Shown: positions 33,646 through 38,304 of the stretch, piece by piece | Layout of the letters: each line of letters begins with the position of its first letter | Position numbering within the stretch: position 1 is the stretch's first letter | Assembly (NCBI RefSeq): GCF_001907675.1 | Contig: NZ_MPNT01000005.1 | Span: 62,001 to 126,000, forward strand | Length of the DNA stretch: 64,000 nt | Source of the DNA: Mycobacterium paraffinicum | GTDB lineage: Bacteria; Actinomycetota; Actinomycetes; Mycobacteriales; Mycobacteriaceae | Direction: 5' to 3' | Program-made: the position numbers and the translations under genes | The notes under the pieces: model-generated | Databases searched by the model: none | The model's input: the letters and a program-made list of their open reading frames with translations, nothing else | Told to the model about the DNA's origin: nothing

Positions 33646-33705
33646 TTAGGCATCGAATTCGATGTCGAGATCGAGCGGCCCGCTCAGCACGACCCGATGG
33701 GTCAC
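33646..33705 (-). CDS. Possible 19-residue peptide at the end of the membrane-complex operon
   Basis: A GTG at 33705 overlaps the stop of the 143-residue gene as GTGA, the same coupling used elsewhere in this operon. It reads MTHRVVLSGPLDLDIEFDA and then TAA. It could be a true micro-peptide, or the surviving start of a longer gene cut off where the insertion meets the pks12 region. The peptide resembles nothing I know. Confidence 0.3.
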   Translation of the reverse strand: MTHRVVLSGPLDLDIEFDA

Positions 33706-34133
33706 GGGTGCGGCGCCGCGTGCTGTTGGGCCGCCTGGCGGGCCAGCCTTTCGTCGTGGATCCGGACGAGTTCACGGAACCCGAGCCGGTGGTACTTGGG
33801 GATAGGCTGGATGCCCCACACATCCTGGGCGGTGGCCTTGCCCTCCGCGCCCTCCGGCGGACCGAACGGCGGGTAGGGGTACTTGCACTCCAAGGTGTCG
33901 TTGGAGTAGCGAATCTTCAAGAGTTCGCTGCAGATTTCGGTGAGACTCAGCGTCGGGTAGCCGTAGTAGACCGCCATGAACGGCAGAGTGAAGGCGCCTT
34001 CGATCACCAGTGCCACCAGGCACACCAGGACGGCTCGTTTGATCCATTTGTGCATCCGCGCGTAGTACGGCGTGGTCCCCGGCTCGAGATCCGCGGTGGG
34101 GTCTTGTTCTTCGGTGGGGGATGGGGCGGTCAT
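33702..34133 (-). CDS. Single-span membrane protein of the NorQD-associated operon
   Basis: A 143-residue protein of unknown function. After a polar N-terminus there is one membrane helix (about residues 34-55, AVLVCLVALVIEGAFTLPFMAVYYG). A likely extracytoplasmic part has two Cys (EICSEL, LECKYPYPPFGPP), a YGYPTLSLTE segment and KYHRLGFRELVRIHDE. The polar start would be cytoplasmic. AAGGAG precedes the ATG at 34133. It is 18 nt downstream of the five-helix protein, so it is a likely subunit or partner of that protein. The Glu in the helix and the aromatic YYGYP exit loosely recall AveC-like membrane proteins, which I could not test. Confidence 0.75.
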   Translation of the reverse strand: MTAPSPTEEQDPTADLEPGTTPYYARMHKWIKRAVLVCLVALVIEGAFTLPFMAVYYGYPTLSLTEICSELLKIRYSNDTLECKYPYPPFGPPEGAEGKATAQDVWGIQPIPKYHRLGFRELVRIHDERLARQAAQQHAAPHP

Positions 34134-34151
34134 CGCACGGCTCCTTGTGGC

Positions 34152-34847
34152 CTAGTCGGTAAAGATTTCGCGGTTGACGGTGTGCAGGTAGGGGATCGCG
34201 AGGAAGGGGGTGATGTAGAAGATGTCGTAGAGCCACCAGCCGATGACCGGGAAGACGACGCCGGCGTAGCGGACGTCGGCGAACATCGTCATGTTGAACA
34301 CGTAGGCGGTCCAAATGACCACGCCCATCCAGCAGGTGACGACCATCCACTGGTGACCCCACCGCTTCATCTGCAGGAACCCGATCGCCGCGGCCACCCG
34401 CATGGCGAACACCGTGAGGATCAGGCCCGCGACATACGCTTTTTCGCCCGGCCCCGCGGCGCCGCCGACCCACAGCTCGTTGTAATGCCAGAAGTACCCC
34501 GCATCAAACATGTTGCCCCAGCCCACCATCAGCACCCGGTTGATCAAGGTGTGGTTGGCGACCAGGTCTAGCGCCCAGCCGAGACTGTTGAGCATGCCGT
34601 CGATCAGGACCAGATAACCGATCAGCGTCACGATCATGGGCCGGACCGACAAGCCGGCGCGCAGCGCCTGGCGCTGCAGCCATACCCCGCGCATGAAGAC
34701 GGGGAATCCGATCAGACCGGGCGCCCACATGCCCATCAACGCGGCGCCGACGATCATCCACTTGTCGGCGTGGCGCTGCGCGTGGCGGGATTCGTCGTGG
34801 TGTTCCTCGAGTCCGACCGCATTCGCTTGCGCGGCAGACACGGTCAC
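34152..34847 (-). CDS. Five-helix membrane protein, copy B, of the NorQD-associated operon
   Basis: A 231-residue polytopic protein, closely related to the gene at 37506-38237. About five membrane segments are visible (MIVGAALMGMWAPGLIGFPV, MIVTLIGYLVLIDGMLNSLG, YVAGLILTVFAMRVAAAIGF, MVVTCWMGVVIWTAYVFNM, VFPVIGWWLYDIFYITPFLA). Between the second and third lies a polar aromatic stretch that both copies share: DLVANHTL and FDAGYFWHYNELW. Other shared His are in MKRWGHQWM and PYLHTVNRE. Conserved Asp, Glu and His near membrane segments suggest metal or redox chemistry, which is inference. The GTG start at 34847 overlaps the stop of the 42-residue gene by 4 nt. No family is recognised. Confidence 0.8.
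   Translation of the reverse strand: MTVSAAQANAVGLEEHHDESRHAQRHADKWMIVGAALMGMWAPGLIGFPVFMRGVWLQRQALRAGLSVRPMIVTLIGYLVLIDGMLNSLGWALDLVANHTLINRVLMVGWGNMFDAGYFWHYNELWVGGAAGPGEKAYVAGLILTVFAMRVAAAIGFLQMKRWGHQWMVVTCWMGVVIWTAYVFNMTMFADVRYAGVVFPVIGWWLYDIFYITPFLAIPYLHTVNREIFTD
34168..34241. repeat. 74-bp exact repeat, copy 1 (matches 37522-37595)
   Basis: The 3' ends of the two five-helix genes are identical over 74 bases, including third codon positions, while their 5' ends differ widely. That suggests recent duplication or gene conversion. Confidence 0.85.
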
Positions 34848-34972
34848 AGATCCCACCACCCGCGGGCGAACGACATGTAGAGCTGAACCCCGAACATCAC
34901 CAGCAAGTAGCCGTAGATGAATAGCTGGAAGATGATGAGCGCCCTCTTGCGCTTCCTCTCCTGTTGGTCCAT
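34844..34972 (-). CDS. 42-residue membrane microprotein of the NorQD-associated operon
   Basis: A small frame from ATG 34972 with a strong AGGAAGGAG upstream. The product starts MDQQERKRKRALIIFQLF, continues with one hydrophobic helix (IFQLFIYGYLLVMFGVQLYM) and ends SFARGWWDL. The basic N-terminus predicts cytoplasmic N, outside C. It lies 15 nt after the ATPase gene and overlaps the next gene by 4 nt, which strongly supports translation. Its size suits a small subunit or assembly peptide of a membrane complex. No family is recognised. Confidence 0.75.
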   Translation of the reverse strand: MDQQERKRKRALIIFQLFIYGYLLVMFGVQLYMSFARGWWDL

Positions 34973-34987
34973 GCCGTCAGCTCCTTC

Positions 34988-37317: not shown

Positions 37318-37356
37318 CGGCCGAGTCCCGCGTTGCCCACCTGTCCGATCCGCGGT

Positions 37357-37461
37357 TCAGAACGTGCCGATGTTGGAGAACAGCCAATACCAGAACCAGA
37401 TGATCAGTCCGGTACCGCCCCACGCGGCGACGTAGCGAAGGATCTCCCACAGATAACCCAC
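37357..37461 (-). CDS. 34-residue membrane microprotein of the NorQD-associated operon
   Basis: A very short frame from GTG 37461, preceded by a strong GAGGAGG at good spacing. It begins MGYLWEILRYVAAWGGTG and then forms a Trp-rich helix (LIIWFWYWLFSNIGTF) up to the TGA. It follows the first five-helix gene by 44 nt and precedes the vWA gene by 39 nt. Ribosome site, hydrophobic content and operon position all support it. It may be a stabilising subunit of the complex. It has no match that I know. Confidence 0.65.
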   Translation of the reverse strand: MGYLWEILRYVAAWGGTGLIIWFWYWLFSNIGTF

Positions 37462-37505
37462 GATGTGACCTCCTCAGTGACGTAAGGTTTTTCGGCTCGC
37501 GCATC

Positions 37506-38237
37506 TCAGTCGGAGAAGAGCTCGCGGTTGACGGTGTGCAGGTAGGGGATCGCGAGGAAGGGGGTGATGTAGAAGATGTCGTAGAGCCACCAGCCCACGA
37601 CCGGTAGCACGACGCCGGCGAAGCGCACGTCGGCGAACATGGTCATGTTGAAGACATAGCCGATCCAGATCACCACGCCCATCCAGCAGGTGACGACCAT
37701 CCACTGATGGCCCCAACGTTTCATCTGCAGGAAGCCGATGGCGGCAGCGATGCGCATCGTGAAGACGGTCAGAATGAGGCCGACCTCCCAGGCCTTTTCA
37801 CCCGGACCGGCCGCCCCACCGATCCACAGCTCGTTGTAGTGCCAGAAATAGCCGGCGTCGAACATGTTGCCCCAGCCGTTGAGCAACACGCGGGCCAGCA
37901 GCGTGTGGTTGGCGACCAGGTCAAGCGCCCATCCGACGGTGTTGATGGCGGCGTCGATGATGACCAGATAGCCGAGCAACGTGACCAACATCGGCCGTAC
38001 GGAGAGGCCGTCTCGCCGGGCCCGGCGCAGCAACCGGACTCCCCAAAGAAACAGCGGCAACCCGAAGACCCCCAGCGCCGCGGTGCCGATCAGGAGACTC
38101 CCGGAGATGAGCCATTTGTCGGCCCGGCGCTGGGCGAGTTGCGACCGCTCCATGTGCTCGTCGATGGTCAGACCTGAGGCTGGCGCGGTCGAGTGGGTGG
38201 CGGTACGAGCATCGCGGTCCAGCTTCGGCGGATTCAC
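37506..38237 (-). CDS. Five-helix membrane protein, copy A, first gene of the NorQD-associated operon
   Basis: A 243-residue paralogue of the protein at 34152-34847. The N-terminal 40 residues differ, but from the first helix on the topology and key motifs are the same: WALDLVANHTL, GWGNMFDAGYFWHYNELW, GGAAGPGEKA, MKRWGHQWMVVTCWMGVVIW and PYLHTVNRE. Two copies in one operon suggest a heterodimer or two alternative subunits. The start is GTG 38237 (MNPPKLDRDARTATHS) with GGGGAGGG upstream. A -10 sequence and a palindromic operator lie 42-67 nt before it. No characterised family is recognised. The gene is the promoter-proximal member of a seven- or eight-gene leftward operon. Confidence 0.8.
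   Translation of the reverse strand: MNPPKLDRDARTATHSTAPASGLTIDEHMERSQLAQRRADKWLISGSLLIGTAALGVFGLPLFLWGVRLLRRARRDGLSVRPMLVTLLGYLVIIDAAINTVGWALDLVANHTLLARVLLNGWGNMFDAGYFWHYNELWIGGAAGPGEKAWEVGLILTVFTMRIAAAIGFLQMKRWGHQWMVVTCWMGVVIWIGYVFNMTMFADVRFAGVVLPVVGWWLYDIFYITPFLAIPYLHTVNRELFSD
37522..37595. repeat. 74-bp exact repeat, copy 2 (matches 34168-34241)
   Basis: This is the partner of the repeat at 34168-34241, in the same orientation, at the 3' end of the copy A gene. Recombination between the two would delete the ATPase, vWA and microprotein genes. Confidence 0.85.
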
Positions 38238-38278
38238 GAACCCTCCCCGTCATCGACGCTGATTGGATCGGCGTCTGC

Positions 38279-38304
38279 ACTATAACAGGCTGACTGTAGT
38301 CAGC
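38279..38304 (-). promoter_or_regulatory. Promoter and TetR-type operator of the NorQD-associated operon
   Basis: On the minus strand a TATAGT -10 hexamer (38279-38284) is preceded within 5 nt by the perfect palindrome GCTGACTGTAGTCAGC (38289-38304). A protein bound there would cover the -35/-10 spacer and block transcription. No good -35 is seen. Related palindromes occur at 38440-38453, 39278-39291 and, in a longer form, 41319-41333. Confidence 0.65.

Follow-up and report, generated by a model that had tools for sequence, protein, structure and literature searches.

A conserved operon of membrane proteins and a NorQD-type pair

We analyzed a 64,000-nucleotide stretch of the Mycobacterium paraffinicum genome (contig NZ_MPNT01000005.1, positions 62,001 to 126,000; hereafter the window), focusing on an operon of seven leftward genes on the minus strand at 33702-38237. 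It encodes two paralogous five-helix membrane proteins (TM5A and TM5B; together with their relatives, TM5), a single-span protein (TM1), two single-span microproteins (micro1 and micro2), a NorQ-type MoxR AAA+ ATPase, and a NorD-type protein with a VWA domain (Table 1). In the order TM5A, micro1, NorD, NorQ, micro2, TM5B, TM1, the genes are spaced by 44, 39, -4, 15, -16, and 18 nucleotides (nt). A first-pass annotation, made from the DNA letters alone, had described seven or eight tightly coupled leftward genes; all seven products that it listed were confirmed, as were the short gaps and overlaps, and an eighth gene was not seen in the window gene map. A database protein that appears to fuse NorQ to TM5B (P0114) was set aside, as it is probably a frame artifact over micro2.

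The operon occurs in many mycobacteria and some Nocardia. We scanned contigs with a TM5 alignment, obtaining 343 confirmed stretches, and retained the best 80 loci, a sample therefore skewed to close relatives, which belong to Mycobacterium, Mycolicibacterium, Nocardia, and Aldersonia. The complete gene set is collinear in 75 of these 80 loci, far beyond chance. Three of the five misses run off contig ends (L010, L034, and L065); in another, TM5A is followed by an SDR gene in reverse orientation and the contig ends at a second TetR gene (L051); and one is a rearrangement (L077). In some Mycolicibacterium loci, an extra TetR gene lies between TM5A and micro1 (L067:8775-9380).

Mean pairwise differences at codon positions 1, 2, and 3 were 0.092, 0.052, and 0.285 for micro1 (58 distinct sequences) and 0.145, 0.064, and 0.315 for micro2 (74 distinct sequences). 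Since the changes fall mostly at third positions, both microproteins are real genes under selection. Of 76 loci examined for TM1, 73 have its Cys-pair motif. In a tree of 87 rows, disregarding the row cassette_L139, a branch with 99/100 support parts TM5A from TM5B, although the bootstrap had not settled; this clean split points to an old duplication.

Identity of the NorQ and NorD homologs

The NorQ-like protein matched Pfam AAA_5 (5.6e-37, 127.3 bits, cut-off 22) and CbbQ_C (7.5e-20, 71.4 bits, cut-off 20.6), and its two best matches in the PDB are both NorQ (9qh4, 1e-75, then 9qhd, 3.3e-73), with CbbQ (6l1q) at 5.6e-64. The Pfam VWA match of the NorD-like protein fell below the cut-off (21.5 vs 23.8 bits). 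A seven-sequence profile of this protein matched the NorD chain 9qhd_G at 2.2e-47 over profile positions 226-504, leaving the N-terminal part uncovered. Following the NorD motif given in an extract of PMC9976466, we assigned by eye a DxSxS-T-D metal ion-dependent adhesion site (MIDAS) composed of D331, S333, S335, T405, and D433, all of which are invariant in the seven aligned sequences. The two proteins are thus NorQ and NorD homologs.

According to the same extract, active nitric oxide reductase (cNOR) containing iron requires both ATP hydrolysis by NorQ and the MIDAS of NorD in Paracoccus (PMC9976466). Our pair shares with that system an AAA_5 plus CbbQ_C ATPase and a VWA partner bearing DxSxS-T-D, here encoded by adjacent genes with a 4-nt overlap. 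It differs in the membrane proteins to which it is linked, namely TM5A, TM5B, TM1, micro1, and micro2, and no norCB or other NO reductase genes were seen by eye in the gene map, a result local to the window. CbbQ and other MoxR/VWA pairs likewise combine a MoxR ATPase with a VWA partner, whereas the linked proteins here are membrane-bound and the scores lie nearer to NorQ/NorD. MSMEG_0748 is a further MoxR ATPase from mycobacteria that is linked to a cluster of enzyme genes, but that cluster, as an extract of PMC12657314 describes it, is the one for CO dehydrogenase and not this operon.

Linkage of TM5 to NorQD across genomes

We surveyed 297 genomes from the genus group of genome G001, uncorrected for relatedness, for TM5 (E <=1e-3) and operon-type NorD (E <1e-200, a cut-off of our choice). 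TM5 was found in 164 of the 297 genomes and operon-type NorD in 160; at most nine first-look TM5 candidates and at most five NorD proteins were scored per genome, and absences are soft. All 160 genomes with operon-type NorD carry TM5 (160/160), and 160 of the 164 genomes with TM5 carry that NorD. Given the kinship among the genomes, the Fisher value for this co-occurrence should not be read as a probability. The four genomes with TM5 alone comprise a piece at a contig start (G492), a 73-amino-acid (aa) remnant frame (G627), and two members of a different TM5 clade (G546 and G761). In wider samples, 16 of 200 genomes from the order of G001 had TM5, as did 6 of 296 from its phylum and, within the class of G319, G319 itself (1/249). 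In a distant relative, L116/L118, whose TM5 is 38% identical to TM5A by tblastn, the TM5, NorD, and NorQ genes are adjacent and accompanied by small membrane proteins.

A lack of linkage to NorQD in other genomes had been named in advance as evidence against the first-pass view; for this clade the linkage is present, as judged by co-occurrence in both directions. Together with the collinearity in 75 of 80 loci and the arrangement in L116/L118, it bears out the earlier statement that several membrane proteins are genetically tied to a NorQD-type pair. Because of this tie, we infer that TM5A, TM5B, and the small membrane proteins are the likeliest clients of NorQD.

The link does not appear to be obligate. 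A third TM5 clade (L134, L136, and, by gene arrangement, L143) showed no NorQD in the stretches read, which weighs against a strict requirement. L143, from a Mycobacterium branderi plasmid, was the one match in a plasmid search for TM5 and is without NorQD nearby. Three further cassettes of TM1, TM5, micro2, and micro1 (L120, L121, and L139, from G186, G157, and G655) had no NorQD within the 15-19 kb fetched. All three genomes also carry operon-type NorD, so one NorQD could serve several complexes in trans, for which these three cases are suggestive. G655 has six TM5 matches, one of them with an in-frame stop, and at one of its loci two different TM5 clades adjoin, one of them inside a NorQD operon (L137:6273-11880).

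Predicted fold of the TM5 proteins

The sigma-2/EBP fold is best known for its part in eukaryotic sterol metabolism and in drug binding. For models of two divergent TM5 proteins, EBP and TMEM97 structures, which have the EXPERA fold, rank highest, and a gap separates them from the other entries; TM5 is thus predicted to have the EXPERA transmembrane fold. These two separate models, along with weak Pfam EBP matches, revise the first-pass view that the five-helix proteins belong to no known family. A confident match to a characterized family had been named in advance as evidence against that view, and it was found in part: the models point to EXPERA, while the sequence statistics are weak.

Several results weigh against the assignment at the level of sequence. 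Structural alignment of TM5 with TMEM97 gave an identity of only 11-13%. Neither TM5A nor TM5B matched Pfam EBP (PF05241); the seven TM5 relatives for which bits are shown scored at most 20.2, below the cut-off of 25.7, and across 198 genomes of the phylum the family had 2 weak matches and 0 above the cut-off. Sequence searches of the PDB with TM5A and with A2 returned no EXPERA match, and hhalign comparisons of TM5 with a single EBP and with a set of 112 were not significant. We accordingly dropped the idea that homology to EBP is proven by sequence alone.

These weak statistics, and Pfam scores below the cut-off wherever bits are shown, would suit an explanation in which TM5 resembles EXPERA only through a widespread way of packing helices and forms a family apart, with a chemistry of its own. 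We regard this as improbable, given that both of the separate models place the listed EXPERA entries at the top, set off by a gap from the others, that faint EBP matches recur in 17 of 62 TM5 members, and that UniProt labels some TM5-type proteins "Emopamil-binding" or "EXPERA domain-containing".

If the fold is as predicted, TM5 would still differ from EBP, the Delta8-Delta7 sterol isomerase, in more than its Pfam score: it has an extra N-terminal helix and comes with several linked small membrane proteins and NorQD. The same differences separate it from TMEM97, the sigma-2 receptor. EXPERA/EBP-like proteins in mycobacteria are already in print. Within Actinobacteria, according to an extract of PMC9903846, PF05241 is confined to several host-associated species of Mycobacterium, Mycolicibacterium, Microbacterium, and Nocardia, and the proteins have six transmembrane regions on average; PMC4818103 mentions three EBP-like proteins in a genomic island. 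Among the matches listed for the open-licence literature, none is an account of this operon or of an EXPERA-NorQD pair.

Conserved residues and candidate active site

An alignment of 69 relatives, which takes in three further TM5 clades, revealed thirteen invariant positions: D95, N99, W103, D106, D127, N135, G140, G141, E147, K148, W175, R205, and P231. The His motifs on which the first-pass annotation relied are present in the window, yet the wider family does not conserve most of their His residues: H133 is kept in 35, H177 in 27, and H234 in 37 of the 69 relatives, and the NorQD-linked L116/L118 is without all three. At position 111 (H111), 63 of 69 have His. Preceded by two small membrane genes, L135:8402-8941 encodes a very divergent TM5-like protein that keeps D95, N99, D106, D127, N135, and E147.

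The residues bear on the earlier proposal of a probably metal-dependent oxidoreductase or hydroxylase, a function that the data do not show. As these His vary among relatives, we rejected a metal site built on the quoted motifs as a general feature; a site formed through the four invariant carboxylates (D95, D106, D127, and E147) is possible. An explanation of this kind would have NorQD insert a metal held by the four carboxylates and H111. It draws on the full invariance of those carboxylates (69/69), the near-invariance of H111, the P450 neighbors and the Rieske genes at other loci, and the loading of non-heme iron into cNOR by NorQD, as described in the extract of PMC9976466. Beyond the variable His motifs, it has to contend with a third TM5 clade lacking NorQD nearby and a conserved set of seven genes that includes no known electron-transfer protein. 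The predicted fold also counts against it, as we know of no metal in EXPERA proteins. On balance, we consider a metal-dependent enzyme unlikely.

In a profile alignment that was not significant, D127 and Y130 of TM5 fall on D108 and Y111 of EBP, D95 falls on H76, and N99 lies near position 80, which is E80 in EBP. D108, Y111, and H76 are among the activity determinants of EBP, and positions 80 and 108 are acidic across EXPERA, according to an extract of PMC4263179. TM5 would thus differ from EBP at H76 and E80. A TMEM97-like, non-catalytic complex for lipid binding, transport, or sensing, assembled by NorQD, would also fit an EXPERA fold; several acidic and amide residues never vary, a pattern that resembles catalysis, and the genes sit in metabolic clusters, making this a distinctly unlikely alternative.

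Gene neighborhood

Neighbors were counted by sequence cluster over the 80 loci plus the window (81 in total); because the flanks span 8 kb, all counts are lower bounds. Upstream of TM5A lie a TetR-family regulator and, beyond it, oxidoreductase genes that recur at most loci (Table 1). Two P450 clusters occur near the operon, in 39 and 37 of the 81 loci. The other flank holds a PRK05865 gene and a giant polyketide synthase, presumably the counterparts of Rv2047c and pks12. The PRK05865-type gene falls in the same cluster in at least 12 of 81 loci, which bears on the claim that the operon sits inside an otherwise conserved mycobacterial region.

Around cassettes elsewhere lie genes that, judged by eye, resemble those for CoA ligases, enoyl-CoA hydratases, acyl-CoA dehydrogenases, P450, and CaiB. 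Spirocyclase AveC-like membrane proteins are encoded near TM5 genes at L138:673-1794 and L120:11521-12312. At L134:8238-9988, by our own gene calls, a TM5 gene of the third clade overlaps one that encodes KshA_C (6.5e-31) and Rieske (1.3e-12) domains. Taken together, the gene context is suggestive of a role in the metabolism of steroid or terpenoid lipids. The M. branderi plasmid locus L143 has a TetR gene, an 83-aa gene, and TM5 in an arrangement similar to that in L134, and a gene annotated as Rieske lies roughly 3 kb from it.

Table 1. Genes of the operon and its upstream neighbors, in window coordinates
Feature	Position	Strand	Description
TM5A	37506-38237	-	243-aa five-helix membrane protein, predicted EXPERA fold
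micro1	37357-37461	-	34-aa single-span microprotein, C-terminal NIGTF, GTG start; coding signal by codon position
NorD-type protein	35788-37317	-	C-terminal VWA, MIDAS D331-x-S333-x-S335, T405, D433 (assigned by eye)
NorQ/CbbQ-type MoxR AAA+ ATPase	34988-35791	-	Pfam AAA_5 and CbbQ_C; PDB NorQ chain 9qh4
micro2	34844-34972	-	42-aa single-span microprotein; coding signal by codon position
TM5B	34152-34859	-	235-aa paralog of TM5A, 73% identical; shares 16 nt with micro2
TM1	33702-34133	-	143-aa single-span protein; conserved Cys pair, soluble part
TetR-family regulator, upstream	38533-39165	-	Pfam TetR_N 2.4e-11; same cluster in 78/81 loci
SDR oxidoreductase	39345-40133	+	conserved neighbor, cluster in 63/81 loci
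Reductase with DAP_DH_C domain	40197-41276	+	conserved neighbor, cluster in 70/81 loci
Cytochrome P450	41345-42568	+	its cluster in 37/81 loci

Proposed function and implications

The reading that we prefer, at somewhat less than an even chance, is that the operon encodes an EXPERA-fold membrane enzyme complex acting on steroid- or terpenoid-like lipids and activated or remodeled by NorQD. TM5A and TM5B would form the core of a single complex, with TM1, micro1, and micro2 as accessory subunits. The substrate would be a hydrophobic lipid with rings, of the steroid, terpenoid, or a similar type, and D95, N99, D106, D127, N135, E147, and K148 would line a membrane pocket that may carry out acid-base chemistry on it, for example a double-bond shift or the addition of water. 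Such a reaction would adjoin P450 or Rieske, SDR, and CoA-ester steps. The NorQ ATPase ring, docked via the VWA domain and MIDAS of NorD, would remodel the finished complex to its active form, and the same NorQD may also serve cassettes encoded elsewhere in the genome.

A bolder version, which we put forward tentatively and hold to be rather unlikely, is that this would be the first EXPERA-fold enzyme complex dependent on an AAA+/VWA maturase, with a four-carboxylate site that NorQD opens or loads with a cofactor, and with one NorQD serving several complexes. If true, the clients of NorQD would extend beyond NO reductase to a sterol-isomerase-like fold. A bacterial EXPERA-fold complex paired with NorQD would be a tractable system for asking what MoxR/VWA chaperones recognize and how they act on membrane clients, and the same system would probe the range of chemistry open to the EXPERA fold. 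For mycobacteria themselves, the operon may point to an unrecognized lipid or steroid pathway.
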